From a virus: a stretch of 27,376 nucleotides of DNA. Shown here one piece after another: positions 2,876-27,216 of the stretch. Where the stretch lies: IMG/VR virus record IMGVR_UViG_3300024255_000126, positions 1 through 27,376 of that record, one strand, 5' to 3'. Numbering within the stretch: the first letter of the stretch is position 1; every line of letters starts with the position of its first letter. The position numbers and the translations under genes are program-made. The notes below the pieces were generated by a model. That model made no database searches and was not told the origin of the DNA. It worked only from the letters and a program-made list of their open reading frames with translations.

Positions 2876-3802
2876 ATGATATATTTAAGCGCTCAACCCG
2901 ATAGCCTATATTTTGCTTGGCAAGTGGAAACTATGTTAACTAATTTTATTGATAAAGGGATCGATCCGAATAACGTTCACGTTGTGGTTGGATATACGGG
3001 TAATAACGTTAGCAGAGAATTTGTTAAATTAAAAGCTAAACACACGGAAGTTAATTTTGGGTTTATAAAAGATATTAGGCCCTTGAATAATTATATTTCT
3101 TCCGTAAGGCCTTTTATATTAATGAAATATTTTCAGAAGAATTGGCAATTAAAATACAAAACTATTTTTTATCACGATTGCGATATCTTGTTTACAAGGA
3201 AACCGGATCTTAATATTTTTAAAAAAGATGAGGTTTGGTATCAATCGAATACAAACGATTATTTAAATCACAAATACGTTAAATCAAAAGGCGACGATGT
3301 TTTGCAGAAAATGTTAAATATTGCGGAGGTTGAAGAAGATCTATTTAAAAGAAATATGTTTAGCTCGGGTGGGGCTCAAACAATAATGAAAAATGTTGAT
3401 TGGGTTTTTTGGCAAAAGGTTTATATTTTAAGTGAAAAATTATTTACTGAATTAACAGAATTAAACCGACAAAAGGTAAAAGAAGATCCAACGCACCACG
3501 CATTGCAAATTTGGTGCGCTGATATGTGGGCCCTTTTATTTACGGCTTGGAAATTAGGCCACGAAACAAAAGTAGATAAAATGTTAGAATTTACTTGGGC
3601 TACGTGCCCGGTTTCTAAATGGCATAAAAATTTAATTTACCACAACGCCGGAGTTACTCACCAAAACAAGAATTTATTTATGAAGCAAAATTTTACAAAT
3701 AAACTTCCATATTTCGTTAATATAGATATAGATCGAACAAAGGCCAATTCTAAATATTATGATTTAGTAAAAACTTTAGGTAAAAAAACTTGTTTAAAAT
3801 GA
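2876..3802 (+). CDS. GT-A fold glycosyltransferase-like protein
   Basis: The protein has 308 residues. A DxD-type motif lies at residues 101-103 within FYHDCDILF, preceded by a hydrophobic strand. This is the arrangement that binds metal and nucleotide-sugar in GT-A glycosyltransferases. A late HNAGV motif (about residue 256) could supply another active-site His. There is no signal peptide or membrane segment, so the enzyme should be cytoplasmic. The ATG lies 1 nt after the stop of the Thr-rich tail protein, and the stop overlaps the next ATG as ATGA, so it is translationally coupled inside the tail operon. Glycosylation of the adjacent Thr-rich protein is a natural inference. Action on hydroxymethylated DNA or on host surface glycans cannot be excluded. 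The fold call comes from the motif and not from a profile search. Confidence 0.6.
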   Translation: MIYLSAQPDSLYFAWQVETMLTNFIDKGIDPNNVHVVVGYTGNNVSREFVKLKAKHTEVNFGFIKDIRPLNNYISSVRPFILMKYFQKNWQLKYKTIFYHDCDILFTRKPDLNIFKKDEVWYQSNTNDYLNHKYVKSKGDDVLQKMLNIAEVEEDLFKRNMFSSGGAQTIMKNVDWVFWQKVYILSEKLFTELTELNRQKVKEDPTHHALQIWCADMWALLFTAWKLGHETKVDKMLEFTWATCPVSKWHKNLIYHNAGVTHQNKNLFMKQNFTNKLPYFVNIDIDRTKANSKYYDLVKTLGKKTCLK

Positions 3803-22943: not shown

Positions 22944-23354
22944 ATGAAACAATTAAAAGAAATAGCCGTAAAGATAAACCGATTAGCGGAGTTGGATATA
23001 TTTAACAATACAAGGAAACGGGAGTACATTGAGGCCCGTTCCTTGTTTTGTCTTATTGCTTATAGATATTGCAATGCAAATTATTCTCGAATAGCCGAGT
23101 TTTTAATATCAAACGGAAAATCAAGCGATCATTCGACAATATTACATTCAATTAAAAATTATGAAATTTATAAGATCTATAATAAAAATCTTGACATTTG
23201 GTTGGAAGATGTTATTGAGAATTTACAAAACCTTGAAAGTAATCAAAAGGTACAATTAGTAACACATAAATTAAATCAATTAACCGATCCCGGTTTAGAT
23301 CTAATAAACGAATTTGTTTCAAAGATCCACGGGGCCGAAGAATATCATAAATAA
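22944..23354 (+). CDS. DnaA domain IV-like DNA-binding protein
   Basis: The protein has 136 residues. Its middle (about 28-74), with ARSLFCLIAYRYCNANYSRIAEFL then SSDHSTILHSIKNYE, follows the DnaA C-terminal signature. In that signature R-x-x-A-x-Y helices are followed by (R/K)DHxTVLHAxxK. The DnaA AAA+ ATPase domain is absent. It probably binds origin-like DNA or modulates replication starts. The C-terminal 60 residues are charged and helical. The assignment rests on the DHSTILHS motif and its spacing to the first helix. Confidence 0.65.
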   Translation: MKQLKEIAVKINRLAELDIFNNTRKREYIEARSLFCLIAYRYCNANYSRIAEFLISNGKSSDHSTILHSIKNYEIYKIYNKNLDIWLEDVIENLQNLESNQKVQLVTHKLNQLTDPGLDLINEFVSKIHGAEEYHK

Positions 23355-23382: not shown

Positions 23383-23979
23383 ATGAAAACACAAAAAATC
23401 TCAATTCGTAAAGTAAAAACAAATCCTCAAAACCCGAGGATCATTAAAGATTATAAATTTAAGAAGCTTGTCAATAGTATTCAACAATTCCCTAAAATGC
23501 TCGAAATTAGGCCTATCGTTGTTAATTCTGATATGATTGTTTTGGGTGGTAATATGCGCTTAAAAGCTTCAGAAGAAGCCGGGTTGAAAGAAGTTTGGGT
23601 AACCCAAGTTGATGATCTAACACCCGAGCAACAACAAGAGTTTATCATAAAAGATAATTCAAGCTTTGGGGAATGGGATTGGGATATACTCGCAAACGAA
23701 TGGAACACCGAAGATCTAAAGTCTTGGGGCCTTGATGTTCCAAAATGGGAAGACGTTTCATTTGATACTGAAATAGAAGATACCGGGGAATATGATTACC
23801 CGGAAGATAATGTAAAAGGATCTCACGTTAAAATGGTTCAATTATTTCTTGATACAGATACCGAGCCTAATTTTAGAAAGTGGGAAGAATTTCTTCGAAC
23901 GATCTTTAAAACAGATAACCTAACAGACACGATCTACAAGGCGGTTGAAAAAATGTATAATGATGAAAACAAAAGTTAA
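23383..23979 (+). CDS. ParB/Srx-like nuclease-domain protein next to the TET/JBP gene
   Basis: The protein is 198 residues long counted from the ATG at 23383, which follows a leader nearly identical to that of the protease gene at 6041. An upstream in-frame extension is rejected because it runs through the previous gene. The ParB-like fold is seen in NPQNPRII (14-21), IRPIVVNSDMIVLGGNMRLKA (42-62, with the GGNMR motif) and EFIIKDNSSFGEWDWDILANEW (86-107). In many phages this domain is joined to DNA methyltransferases; here none follows. It ends with a segment of about 50 residues, VKMVQLFLDTDTEPNF and on. It overlaps the dioxygenase by 20 nt. It may guide or regulate the modification enzymes. 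Confidence 0.8.
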   Translation: MKTQKISIRKVKTNPQNPRIIKDYKFKKLVNSIQQFPKMLEIRPIVVNSDMIVLGGNMRLKASEEAGLKEVWVTQVDDLTPEQQQEFIIKDNSSFGEWDWDILANEWNTEDLKSWGLDVPKWEDVSFDTEIEDTGEYDYPEDNVKGSHVKMVQLFLDTDTEPNFRKWEEFLRTIFKTDNLTDTIYKAVEKMYNDENKS

Positions 23980-24868
23980 AGAACACAGATTAAAAGAAAG
24001 ATTAACAGACGAACAAGCCCGTAAATTAGCCGGAACTTTATTAGATGAAACCGACTACAATTTATTAGTTACTTATGATGCTGATATTTATTGCGAGAAA
24101 ACCGGCCAATGTATAGCCAAGTTTAGGAAGAAAGTTATCCCGGGTAATATTGCCAAAGATGCATTTGAAAATCTAAAAGGCGCTTCAACGCCTACAAACA
24201 ATAGACCATTTTCCGGTGGCGAGTTTGATGAAAAAGGACATACAACCCATTATAGGGTAAAGAAAGACGGCACCCGATCACAAACCAACCAAGCCTTGAC
24301 AAGTGTTAATTCGGGTATAATTGGTTATTTCGATCGGAACGCAAGATTTCCGTATTGCAGACAAACGGCCTTTAATGAAAAACAATTTAGCAAGTTTAAA
24401 AAAGCCTATCCAATAATTAACTTTGTTGATAAAGCTTACGCGAAACTAATGCCAAAACATTATGCATTGCAAAGGGCCGAGGCTGATAAAACCTCGCAAG
24501 ATTTTGTTATTAAAAATACCGCTTTTACCACGGTGACGGTCAATTCAAATTGGCAGACGGCCGTACATACCGACGCCGGTGATTTTGAAAAGGGTTTTGG
24601 AAACCTTGTTGCTTTAAGATCCGGGCGTTATACCGGAGGTTATTTCGTTGTTCCGAAATGGGGCGTTGCTTTCGATCTTCAACAATGCGATCTTCTTTTA
24701 GTTGATGTACACCAATGGCACGGCAACACGCCAATAAACAAAATAGATGAAGATGCAAAAAGGGTAAGCCTTGTAATGTACTATCGTAAAAATATGATTA
24801 GTTGCGGATCGGCTAAAGAGGAAATGGATATTGTTAAACGCCGAAAAAAAGGTACACACTTAAATTAA
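23960..24868 (+). CDS. TET/JBP-family 2-oxoglutarate/Fe(II) DNA base dioxygenase
   Basis: The protein is 302 residues long counted from the ATG at 23960 (a second ATG lies at 23963). The jelly-roll core carries H203-x-D205 (TAVHTDAGD), a distal His in DVHQWHGN (H254, with H251 nearby) for iron, and R268 (KRVSLVMYYR) for 2-oxoglutarate. The surrounding pattern matches the phage branch of the TET/JBP family: VNSGIIGYFDR (116-126), RQTAFNEKQF (134-143), TAFTTVTVNSNW (187-198), and GNLVALRSGRYTGGYFVVPKWGVAFDL (214-240). Members oxidise the 5-methyl group of thymine (JBP) or 5-methylcytosine (TET) in DNA. The neighbours favour thymine. The gene shares one base with the next ATG. Confidence 0.85.
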   Translation: MMKTKVKEHRLKERLTDEQARKLAGTLLDETDYNLLVTYDADIYCEKTGQCIAKFRKKVIPGNIAKDAFENLKGASTPTNNRPFSGGEFDEKGHTTHYRVKKDGTRSQTNQALTSVNSGIIGYFDRNARFPYCRQTAFNEKQFSKFKKAYPIINFVDKAYAKLMPKHYALQRAEADKTSQDFVIKNTAFTTVTVNSNWQTAVHTDAGDFEKGFGNLVALRSGRYTGGYFVVPKWGVAFDLQQCDLLLVDVHQWHGNTPINKIDEDAKRVSLVMYYRKNMISCGSAKEEMDIVKRRKKGTHLN

Positions 24869-25590
24869 TGGATTTATCATTTAGAGAATTTTCAGAAAAC
24901 ATTATTCAATCGGGTGACATAGATCCGGATTACATTTTGATCCGAGAAAAATGCGAGGAACTTGGTTGGGATAAAAAGCAAATGTTTAATTGGATCTTAC
25001 ACAAGCTTGTAATTTACGATAGTTATTCAGAATTGGAAGTGATATTGAAACGTAAAAACATATTTGATGTTAAGTACGGAACGGAACGCCGTAAATCAAA
25101 ACGATTTGCGCAAGATTATTTAAACAATATCCAAAGGGCTTTTATATTTACCGACGTGGAGAAGTTTTTCAGCCGTGACGGAAATGTTGTTTTCAATCAA
25201 ATAAAAACAATCAAAGGTTTTGGATCTTGGGCAAGTTGGAAATTTATGGATCTAATGAGTTGTTGTTACGGGCTTGACGTTGATTTTAATGGGATCGACT
25301 TTCGTGAAGCTTATACGTTTCCGCTAAAGGGCCTATTGATGATCCACGGGTACCCGGAAGATGTTAGGCTACTCAAAGATACGAAGCTTTATAATAAGCT
25401 AATTACAAGCACCCACGATATGTTAAGCGGTTTGGAAGATCTAAAAGCACCACACAATAACAACAAAGGCTTAAGGATCCAAGAAGTTGAAACCTTGTTA
25501 TGTAAATACCACTCTTATAAACACAATAAATATAAACCGGGCCAAGATCTTATTCACTTGGCGAAACGTGGTAAGGAATGTATAATATAG
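24868..25590 (+). CDS. alpha-glutamyl/putrescinyl-thymine pyrophosphorylase-like protein (aGPT-Pplase family)
   Basis: The protein has 240 residues. A helical N-terminus (EFSENIIQSGDIDPDYILIRE) leads to a helix-hairpin-helix-like core, IKTIKGFGSWASWKFMDLM (112-130). This is followed by GLDVDFNGIDFREAY and a C-terminal ETLLCKYHSYKHNKYKPGQD (208-227). I match this to the family that transfers an amino acid or amine onto phosphorylated 5-hydroxymethyluracil in DNA, known from phages phiW-14, SP10, ViI and M6. The location between a TET/JBP enzyme and a hydroxymethyl-U kinase type protein supports it. It overlaps the next gene by 13 nt. A generic HhH DNA glycosylase relative is the alternative. 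Confidence 0.7.
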   Translation: MDLSFREFSENIIQSGDIDPDYILIREKCEELGWDKKQMFNWILHKLVIYDSYSELEVILKRKNIFDVKYGTERRKSKRFAQDYLNNIQRAFIFTDVEKFFSRDGNVVFNQIKTIKGFGSWASWKFMDLMSCCYGLDVDFNGIDFREAYTFPLKGLLMIHGYPEDVRLLKDTKLYNKLITSTHDMLSGLEDLKAPHNNNKGLRIQEVETLLCKYHSYKHNKYKPGQDLIHLAKRGKECII

Positions 25591-26366
25591 TTGGGGCCGG
25601 GCTTTGCGGAAGTATGTTAGCTAAAGAGTTTGATAACCTCGGTATTGAATACCGGATCTTTGACGCAAAATTACCATTTAGCGCTTCAATTATTTCAGAG
25701 AATTTATTTAGCGATACTTGGTTGAAAGACGTTTCATACATAAAACAATCTTTAGATTTCATACACGACAATTACGAGGTTGAAAAGAGATTATTCGTTG
25801 GGCCTACAACCCAAAAAGAATTATATCATTTGCCGATACCAAATGTGTTGAGGTTTGATTATATCCAAGAGGAAGTGTTAGAAGCCACAAAAGAGGGCGT
25901 TAGAACGCATAACGGGTTTTATAAGGGCCGGAATATCATTTGCGCGGGTTTCCTCGCTAAAAAGCTATTTAAATTGCCTTATTTAGATGCATTGACCGGT
26001 CACGGGTTTTATATTAAGAAGCAAGTAATAAAAGATTACATAAATACCTACCGGCCTTATACTCACGAAAAAATAATGAATTGGCACGATGGTTTGATTT
26101 GGTACGGAGATAGCACCGCGATACGCCACAACAATTATATGAAAAAAAGAAAGGATTATATTCAGCGAAGTTTGGAAAGGCTAAAAGGCCACGGCCTTGA
26201 ATATGAGAAGATCGTTTATGGATCCCGGCCAATGAATATTAAAAATCCTAAAGAGGGGTTGTTAGTAAAGATTAATGAAAACAATATTATAATCAATGGC
26301 GGTTGGAAAGACGGGTTGGTTATTTATCCATACCTAATAAAAAAACTACACAAATGGCTAAAGTAA
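25578..26366 (+). CDS. FAD-dependent oxidoreductase/lyase of the DNA hypermodification cluster
   Basis: The protein has 262 residues. The N-terminus is a Rossmann FAD-binding motif: IVGAGLCGSM with G6-x-G8-x2-G11, and the ribose-binding acid D29 in YRIFDAK. The C-terminus (about 240-260, INGGWKDGLVIYPYLIKKL) is the second FAD-contacting part typical of D-amino-acid-oxidase-like proteins. NIICAG and WYGDSTAIR fit the same fold. Flavin-dependent lyases act on amino-acid-modified thymidines in phage hypermodification pathways, so this enzyme probably trims or oxidises the appended amino acid. It overlaps both neighbours by 13 nt. Confidence 0.75.
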   Translation: MYNIVGAGLCGSMLAKEFDNLGIEYRIFDAKLPFSASIISENLFSDTWLKDVSYIKQSLDFIHDNYEVEKRLFVGPTTQKELYHLPIPNVLRFDYIQEEVLEATKEGVRTHNGFYKGRNIICAGFLAKKLFKLPYLDALTGHGFYIKKQVIKDYINTYRPYTHEKIMNWHDGLIWYGDSTAIRHNNYMKKRKDYIQRSLERLKGHGLEYEKIVYGSRPMNIKNPKEGLLVKINENNIIINGGWKDGLVIYPYLIKKLHKWLK

Positions 26367-26866
26367 TTGCGATAGGCGGTGTTCCGGCAACCGGGAAAAC
26401 AAGTATGATGCGAGAAATCATAAAACACCATATGCCTTTAACAACATTTAAATACAAATTGGTAAGGGGTTTATACAATAGAAAAACAAACGTTTATATT
26501 ATAGGGATCTATGACAATTCGTTATTTAGCGGAACGGATAAATTAAGTATGGCGGTACAACCGGATTTTATCAAGCTTGTACAAATGGAGCCACGCGGTA
26601 CATTTATATTTGAGGGAGATCGATTATTCAATCGAAGCTTATTTCAAAAAGTAGATTGCGAGATTTTTGTTTTAGATGCTGATCAAGATCTAATTCACAA
26701 AAGACATATTGATCGAGAAGATACCCAAACGGATCAATTCAAGAAATCGAAACGAACAAAGATCCAAAATATATTAGTAAGCCATAAGGTTACGATCCTA
26801 ACAAATAATACAAAAGAGGAAGCACAAGAAAACTTAAAAACAATATTAAACGAGATAGAAAAATGA
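26354..26866 (+). CDS. P-loop kinase, likely 5-hydroxymethyluracil DNA kinase
   Basis: The protein is 170 residues long counted from the ATG at 26354; an in-frame extension upstream lies within the FAD gene and is rejected. Walker A is GVPATGKTS (9-17) just after the first strand. A strand with FEGDRLF resembles the catalytic acid region of small nucleotide or sugar kinases. The C-terminal half has VLDADQDLIHKRHIDRED and basic helices as a lid. In phages making hypermodified thymidine, such kinases phosphorylate 5-hydroxymethyl-dU in DNA, activating it for amino-acid transfer. The aGPT-Pplase-like neighbour supports this role. Its stop overlaps the small terminase start (ATGA). Confidence 0.7.
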   Translation: MAKVIAIGGVPATGKTSMMREIIKHHMPLTTFKYKLVRGLYNRKTNVYIIGIYDNSLFSGTDKLSMAVQPDFIKLVQMEPRGTFIFEGDRLFNRSLFQKVDCEIFVLDADQDLIHKRHIDREDTQTDQFKKSKRTKIQNILVSHKVTILTNNTKEEAQENLKTILNEIEK

Positions 26867-27216
26867 ACAAAACCGAACACACTAAAAAAGCGTTATTACA
26901 AGCGCTTGAAAAATCATTAGGCGTTGTAACCTCGGCGTGTAGAAAAATAGGCGTGGGCCGTACTACATATTATGATTGGTATAATTCCGATCCGGAGTTT
27001 AAGAAGAAAGTTGACGATCTACAAAACGTTGCTTTGGATATGGCAGAAAGCCAATTACACAAACAGATCCTTGGCGATAGTACAACGGCCACTATATTTT
27101 ACCTAAAAACAAAAGGAAAGAATAGGGGCTATGTTGAAAGAACGGAACATACCGGGATTGAGGGCACAAAATTATTTGAAATAGAAATTGTAAAAAGAAG
27201 TGACGAAGAAGATTAG
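26863..27216 (+). CDS. Small terminase subunit (HTH type)
   Basis: The protein has 117 residues. The N-terminal helix-turn-helix (ALLQALEKSLGVVTSACRKI, GVGRTTYYDWYNSDPEFKKKV) and LKTKGKNRGYVERTEHTG near the C-terminus match the small terminase of many Bacteroidota phages. It recognises phage DNA and hands it to the large subunit. It is joined to the kinase by ATGA and overlaps the large terminase start by 17 nt, so modification and packaging genes share one unit. Confidence 0.75.
   Translation: MNKTEHTKKALLQALEKSLGVVTSACRKIGVGRTTYYDWYNSDPEFKKKVDDLQNVALDMAESQLHKQILGDSTTATIFYLKTKGKNRGYVERTEHTGIEGTKLFEIEIVKRSDEED

Follow-up and report, generated by a model that had tools for sequence, protein, structure and literature searches.

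Five mutually overlapping open reading frames, all on the + strand at positions 23383–26866 of the window (the whole 27,376-nucleotide stretch analysed here), appear to encode a pathway for thymine hypermodification that begins with a TET/JBP dioxygenase acting on DNA. Leaving the exact final base aside, we put the probability of a route from T through 5-hydroxymethyluracil (5hmU) to an amino-acid-derived base at roughly 0.77; both activity on thymine and the identity of the product are what we infer from sequence. An earlier note had described five overlapping genes at this place, and an ORF check of the window finds every one of them. The carrier, a virus of marine bacteria, is represented in the window by only part of its genome: ~6.9 kb is missing, and a ~92% identical relative spans the gap and bridges both window ends. 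A genome-contig scan matched only two metagenome-assembled contigs and found no host. The cassette is bounded by a gene for a small-terminase-like HTH protein (26863–27216, + strand; PHROG 309, terminase small subunit, 6.9e-9); in the majority of related loci of the flavophage type, such a gene likewise comes after the kinase.

The second gene (23963–24868, + strand, 301 aa) would supply the first step. Its product matches the Pfam Tet_JBP domain (PF12851, 1.2e-28; 99.9 bits against a cut-off of 34.9), and residues H202, D204, H253 and R267, the HxD...H...R signature noticed earlier, are invariant in an alignment of 88 homologues. The AF2 model (mean pLDDT 75) matches TET2 at Z 19.0 and NgTET1 at Z 17.9, with the best AlkB-type chain at 13.3. 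Domain, metal triad, 2OG-binding Arg and double-stranded beta-helix fold together place the protein among the TET/JBP 2OG-Fe(II) dioxygenases. Phmmer searches of the PDB with the single TET sequence and with the kinase gave no match, and these two proteins were instead assessed by alignments and fold searches. We predict that the TET protein is a thymine hydroxylase working on DNA, and T is very probably its substrate. The residue eight positions after the 2OG Arg, expected to touch the base, is His in TET2 and NgTET1; among the 88 phage TETs, 75 have Arg there, 12 have Leu and one has Met. The only C5-methylase-linked TET looked at has Asp. As a marker of base specificity this position is suggestive, but one control cannot decide the substrate.

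The third gene (24868–25590, + strand, 240 aa) had been read as an aGPT-Pplase-like HhH protein, a name we replace with amino acid:DNA transferase (ADDT): its product scores above cut-off for the Pfam ADDT family (PF18724, 1.9e-10; 41.3 bits against 26.2), and its nearest solved relatives are the amino acid:DNA transferase 25qc (7e-12) and the "Glycinyltransferase" 8z2m (1.4e-6). It also matches M6 ORF051 at 1e-9, and the motifs DxDP, GxERR, GxW..K and ETxLC are common to it, PaMx11 gp46 and M6. The FAD protein (25578–26366, + strand, 262 aa) has no significant match in Pfam; residues 4–253 match the solved "Flavin-dependent lyase" 8z2o at 1.4e-6 and 8z79 at 1.1e-5, a full-length homology that narrows the earlier call of a FAD oxidoreductase/lyase to a flavin-lyase homologue. 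It carries a GAGLxGS dinucleotide motif, matches PaMx11 gp47 by tblastn (1e-6), and pairs with the gp47-type flavin lyases in profile comparison (95.7%, E 9e-9). The last gene (26354–26866, + strand, 170 aa counted from the ATG at 26354) encodes a P-loop kinase whose match to Ploopntkinase3 (PF18751, 9.8e-4; 19.1 bits) lies under the cut-off of 27; its identity is firmed by profile–profile comparison with the kinases of M6 (gp54), PaMx11 (gp49) and actinophages (97.4%, E 1.3e-11, 151 columns), and fold searching returns the nucleoside/nucleotide-kinase fold. We predict that it is a 5-hydroxymethyl-dU DNA kinase.

The cassette's first gene (23383–23979, + strand, 198 aa) encodes a ParB-like protein, as first proposed: the match to Pfam ParB_N is just below cut-off (2.3e-5; 24.8 bits against 26.3), and PHROG 620 ("ParB-like partition protein", 3.7e-26) and PHROG 498 (4.4e-28) are both matched. 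A ParB-like gene occupies the first position in most related loci where upstream sequence is present. The protein is probably a DNA-binding or targeting factor, one that would bring the enzymes to DNA or restrict which thymines get modified, the least secure of our suggestions.

TET, ADDT and kinase cluster beyond chance, as in 49 of the 56 viral loci seeded on TET its neighbours include both an ADDT and a kinase; among the other seven, five are cut off and two have other modules. In the converse scan, seeded on ADDT, 33 of 34 loci had TET either at the locus or elsewhere in its record; the odd one out is a 7.6-kb fragment. The three genes remain linked across several arrangements, including TET-ADDT-FAD-KIN, TET-KIN-FAD-ADDT (L080), ADDT-FAD-KIN-TET (L068, L103, L107) and ADDT-KIN-TET (L101, L105); the tailoring genes located between TET and kinase, by contrast, have been exchanged time and again. 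Between near-sister TETs the FAD module alternates with GATase/GNAT (at least 12 label changes are forced by supported branches), which fits a shared 5hmU intermediate on which one tailoring set can stand in for another.

Under the proposed pathway, the TET/JBP protein would hydroxylate the methyl group of selected thymines in polymerised DNA to give 5hmU, a step suggested by its family membership and by the lack of any other recognised 5hmU source. The kinase would phosphorylate the 5hmU hydroxyl, as its M6 and PaMx11 homologues suggest; ADDT is predicted, from homology to the solved glycinyltransferase, to exchange the phosphate of phospho-5hmU for an amino acid, probably glycine, yielding N-glycyl-T; and the flavin-dependent lyase, by homology to that of PaMx11, is predicted to cleave N-glycyl-T, stripping the remaining glycine to leave 5-aminomethyl-dU. 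We hold the order of kinase and ADDT with high confidence, regard glycine as the likely amino acid, and favour 5-aminomethyl-dU as the final base with rather less assurance. The hypermodified thymine would most likely shield virion DNA against host restriction. At the level of sequence homology the logic of the earlier note is upheld, with thymidine-hypermodification homologues downstream, no dUMP hydroxymethylase, and a TET in its place; its unspecified "trimmed product" can be refined, since the trimming enzyme is a flavin-lyase homologue and 5-aminomethyl-dU via N-glycyl-T is therefore the likeliest product.

The closest model is Pseudomonas phage PaMx11, whose genes run ADDT (gp46), FAD (gp47), GNAT (gp48), kinase (gp49), gp50 and a thymidylate-synthase homologue (gp51). 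ADDT, flavin lyase and kinase homologues stand in the same order in both, and the N-glycyl-T to 5-aminomethyl-dU chemistry of PaMx11 is likewise predicted here. The window differs in having neither the GNAT acetyltransferase nor the PF00303 hydroxymethylase, and has a TET and a ParB-like gene upstream instead; with TET in place of the hydroxymethylase, 5hmU would arise in the polymer, unlike in PaMx11. The front half of the pathway could also be shared and the product different, with another amino acid attached by ADDT, or with the flavin protein acting as an amine oxidase, so that the final base is not 5-aminomethyl-dU. ADDT and the FAD protein are each only ~21%–25% identical to the PaMx11 enzymes, so amino acid and product cannot be fixed from them, and the chemistry clearly varies among related loci, which carry GATase+GNAT+ADDT, ADDT alone or a glycosyltransferase. 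Against this, the best solved matches are a glycinyltransferase and a flavin-dependent lyase, adjacent in the PaMx11 order, and we consider a different product unlikely, if well within reach.

The proposal of oxidation in the polymer also depends on where 5hmU comes from. Of the PaMx11/M6-type pathway the window has a kinase, a transferase for the amino acid and a tailoring enzyme, and no dUMP hydroxymethylase (PF00303): the absence of this last enzyme claimed earlier holds both in the window and in the relative covering the ~6.9-kb gap, and none of the 38 distinct records of related viruses (fragmentary contigs, with the window and bridging relative among them) contains PF00303, nor do the complete genomes of five TET phages (Tonitrus, CloverMinnie, Matzah, P12024L and HTVC112P). 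A divergent enzyme that makes 5hmU as a nucleotide could escape profile searches, which may overlook very divergent members, leaving TET to oxidise further or to target something else. We give this very little credence, as the PF00303 profile does detect the distant enzymes of M6 (5.5e-20) and PaMx11 (3.3e-26); those two phages have PF00303 without TET, and the five complete TET phages show the reverse. To our knowledge, the only phage TETs with demonstrated activity follow a C5-methylase/5-methylcytosine route. In that route, as far as Burke et al. 2021 is represented in PMC12730594, 5-methylcytosine from a phage methylase is oxidised, and acting on T is therefore not what the family does by default; TET here might likewise oxidise 5-methylcytosine made by a phage or host methylase, with kinase, ADDT and lyase building a hypermodified cytosine. 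Methylophilales phage Melnitz-3, which has an HhaI-like C5-methylase immediately upstream of TET, offers a precedent, and C5-methylase-like proteins occur in four of the 38 related records, never beside TET. Yet PF00145 is absent from the window, the bridging relative, the other 34 records and the same five complete phages; across the 38 records and twelve phage records searched, it is mostly absent and never beside an ADDT-linked TET. The one C5-methylase-linked TET checked has no ADDT in its genome, and the relatives of our ADDT, kinase and flavin lyase are thymidine-hypermodification enzymes. A cytosine route is accordingly improbable, and thymine oxidation remains the preferred reading.

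Other systems share parts of this arrangement. Cytosine hypermodification by C5-methylase plus TET (Burke et al. 2021; Melnitz-3 is an example) resembles the predicted pathway of the window in relying on a phage TET/JBP to make a hydroxymethylpyrimidine for tailoring, and differs in its adjacent C5-methylase and its other downstream enzymes; the window has no TET-linked C5-methylase. Base J, made by kinetoplastid JBP and a glucosyltransferase, involves the same TET/JBP hydroxylation of thymine in DNA that is predicted here, and adds a sugar where the cassette is predicted to add phosphate and then an amino acid; Pfam finds no glycosyltransferase among the cassette domains, and glycosyltransferases may lie elsewhere in the genome. 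The nearest isolated relative, Nonlabens phage P12024L (portal 35.5% identity, TET 42% identical), is like the window without PF00303 and PF00145; at gp26–gp27 its TET is followed by a TET-associated glycosyltransferase (PF20691), where the window has ADDT, flavin lyase and kinase.

Iyer et al. are said to have predicted TET-first thymine hypermodification in 2013, and we know of no laboratory demonstration of such a step. The idea is not new, since Rhodococcus phage Tonitrus was annotated in 2025 with a thymidine hypermodification system of equivalent make-up (PMC11955845). Nor is the system confined to the Bacteroidota phages of the earlier note. In Tonitrus and Gordonia phage CloverMinnie, ParB, TET, ADDT and kinase lie close together at the genome start, without PF00303 as in the window; the order differs (TET-ADDT-kinase-Rossmann protein), and their TETs form a separate clade with N/L, not D/R, at two expected base-contact positions. 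Their last "hypothetical" gene was considered as a candidate flavin-lyase orthologue; in profile comparison only a 44-residue dinucleotide-binding N-terminus aligned (E 0.012). With no clear flavin lyase in CloverMinnie, the pathway there may stop at N-glycyl-T.

Tentatively, and at somewhat less than even odds, a large and widespread class of phages may write amino-acid-derived thymine marks on finished DNA, TET first, with a fixed ParB-TET-kinase scaffold, interchangeable tailoring (glycine and flavin lyase; GATase, GNAT and another ADDT; or glycosyltransferase) and a ParB-like protein choosing the thymines. If our reading is right, phages have two unrelated routes to 5hmU, one making the nucleotide before synthesis and the other oxidising T after it, both leading into one series of enzymes (kinase, transferase for the amino acid, lyase). 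Starting after replication would leave room for modification at chosen sites, something that replacing a nucleotide wholesale does not allow, and would mean that JBP activity on thymine has a counterpart in bacterial viruses. The prediction names a concrete product to seek, and Tonitrus and CloverMinnie are isolated phages in which to look. One further locus (L159, a 26-kb fragment) has ADDT and kinase, without TET and PF00303, and carries apparent radical-SAM and PLP enzymes of the M6 type.

The 27,376 bases of the window are the virus record of an uncultivated phage. In a search of phage records, only the Nonlabens phages P12024S and P12024L, which have a marine flavobacterium as host, gave matches to its portal and capsid proteins (34%–36% identity). 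The cassette of the window comprises five overlapping plus-strand genes (23383-26866) encoding a ParB-like protein, a TET/JBP oxygenase (TET), an amino acid:DNA transferase (ADDT), a FAD protein and a P-loop kinase; a small-terminase-like gene (26863-27216) follows directly. Pfam and PHROG scans concur with the ParB, TET and ADDT calls that an earlier note had made from sequence alone. The gene directly ahead of the cassette (22944-23354) has a product similar to the C-terminal, DNA-binding domain of DnaA (3.6e-7, just short of the Pfam cut-off). By eye, the product of 2876-3802 (no Pfam hit) and a protein of a ~92% identical relative (L082:11951-12493) look like glycosyltransferases, which might decorate virion or DNA.

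The window TET gene matches Tet_JBP at 1.2e-28 (Pfam). The AF2 model of the protein, which has a mean pLDDT of 75 and is poor in parts of ~80-136, matches human TET2 (Z 19.0, 3.6 Å across 246 residues), NgTET1 (Z 17.9) and CcTet (Z ~16.5), the best AlkB-type structure scoring clearly lower (Z 13.3). All of 88 phage TET homologues keep the metal triad (H202, D204, H253) and the 2OG arginine (R267). At two expected base-contact positions of the alignment the phage residues are unlike those of TET2, a pointer to substrate that is only suggestive. The window ADDT matches PF18724 (1.9e-10) and, among solved structures, the “Amino acid:DNA transferase domain-containing protein” 25qc (7e-12) and the “Glycinyltransferase” 8z2m (1.4e-6); the FAD protein is matched end to end by the solved “Flavin-dependent lyase” 8z2o (1.4e-6) and also by PaMx11 gp47. 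The kinase scores below the Pfam cut-off, but profile–profile comparison pairs it with the M6/PaMx11/actinophage kinase profile (97.4%, E 1.3e-11), and its predicted structure has a nucleoside/nucleotide-kinase fold. Several homologues of the 5hmU DNA kinase (M6 gp54, PaMx11 gp49, Cr30 gp114 and PHROG 800) are labeled “terminase small subunit,” which looks like a mistake passed on between annotations.

Kinase and ADDT both adjoin TET in 49 of 56 loci of a TET-seeded scan (five others are cut off and two hold other modules), and TET occurs in 33 of 34 loci or their records in an ADDT-seeded scan, the lone exception being a 7.6-kb fragment; with the cassette's own genes as seeds, these counts measure association and are no census. 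Gene order varies between deep lineages: TET-ADDT-FAD-kinase in the window, TET-kinase-FAD-ADDT in L080, ADDT-FAD-kinase-TET in L068, L103 and L107, and ADDT-kinase-TET in L101 and L105. Because the genes stay linked despite reordering, they likely work together. The reordered set of L068, preceded by ParB, lies on a contig of a Parcubacteria metagenome-assembled genome, far from the flavophage group. Another viral record (L159:1079-5411) has one run of ParB, a PLP-fold enzyme, a radical-SAM-like protein, ADDT and kinase that resembles the M6 tailoring set; neither TET nor PF00303, the thymidylate-synthase/dUMP-hydroxymethylase profile, was found in its 26 kb.

The earlier note had seen no dUMP hydroxymethylase, and this holds more widely: PF00303, a profile sensitive enough to detect the distant M6 and PaMx11 enzymes, is found in none of 38 distinct viral records with related cassettes. 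Roughly 6.9 kb of the window genome is missing from the record. The ~92% identical relative, one of the 38, aligns to both ends of the window; across the gap it carries terminase, tail and small genes, and neither PF00303 nor PF00145 (C5-cytosine methylase) was detected in its record. Among complete genomes, M6 and PaMx11 have PF00303 and lack TET, and Tonitrus, CloverMinnie, Matzah, P12024L and HTVC112P have TET and lack both PF00303 and PF00145, so that in these seven phages the two sources of 5hmU are mutually exclusive. The exclusion is not absolute across TET phages, as TET, kinase and ADDT coexist in Caulobacter phage Cr30 with an ordinary-looking thymidylate synthase (3.9e-113).

The alternative TET substrate is 5mC, with which the characterized phage route begins (Burke 2021, as summarized in PMC12730594). 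A pair of this cytosine type is seen in the cultured Methylophilales phage Melnitz-3 (L179:1323-3507), where an HhaI-like C5-cytosine methylase lies directly 5′ of TET and overlaps it; this control has no ADDT. PF00145 occurs in four of the 38 ADDT-linked records, in each away from TET. Since the downstream enzymes are of thymidine type, T is a more economical substrate than 5mC. To our knowledge, no phage TET has been proved biochemically to act on thymine.

Alongside the observed genes, their homology, their linkage and the absence of an alternative 5hmU source, we propose a route in which TET would convert T to 5hmU within DNA, the kinase would phosphorylate it, glycine would displace the phosphate through ADDT, and the flavin lyase would cleave the product to 5-aminomethyl-dU; the ParB-like protein may provide targeting, and the benefit would be protection from restriction. 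PaMx11 shares the ADDT-FAD-kinase run, its order being ADDT gp46, FAD gp47, GNAT gp48, kinase gp49 (the “terminase small subunit”), gp50 and thymidylate-synthase homologue gp51, whereas the window has neither GNAT in the run nor a hydroxymethylase. Lee et al. 2022 reportedly found that PaMx11 turns 5hmU into N-glycyl-T and 5-aminomethyl-dU by an ADDT/flavin-lyase-type route. The same chemistry from 5hmU is indicated by the title of Wen et al. 2024 (as quoted in PMC11946847), and 5-aminomethyluracil is among the natural phage bases (PMC11550810).

Iyer et al. 2013 are said to have predicted TET/JBP-made hydroxymethylpyrimidines as starting points of such pathways. With that prediction, and with the ParB, Tet-like, aGPT-Pplase2 and kinase set of Tonitrus, which its 2025 description takes to be possibly a system for thymidine hypermodification (PMC11955845), the TET-first concept is not new. 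This analysis adds the assignment of ADDT and the FAD protein as glycinyltransferase and flavin lyase, together with a named product; it also adds the comparison with phages that use a hydroxymethylase, and the repeated exchange of modules.

Close relatives differ in what lies between the same TET and kinase: some have ADDT and FAD, others a class-II glutamine amidotransferase, a GNAT protein and another ADDT clade. In type B cassettes (L005:6600-8465 and similar loci), which many relatives have, the latter set replaces ADDT and flavin lyase. In a phylogeny of 88 TETs, 13 changes of the FAD label are required, and well-supported branches force at least 12 of them; some sister TETs (such as L016/L020 and L028/L036) have unlike modules. 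Such exchange fits one common intermediate, which would be phospho-5hmU, with interchangeable finishing chemistry. In Pelagibacter phage HTVC112P (L059:5378-7600), an FkbM-type methyltransferase comes after ParB-TET, and neither ADDT nor kinase was seen next to it, which suggests that 5hmU could be O-methylated there.
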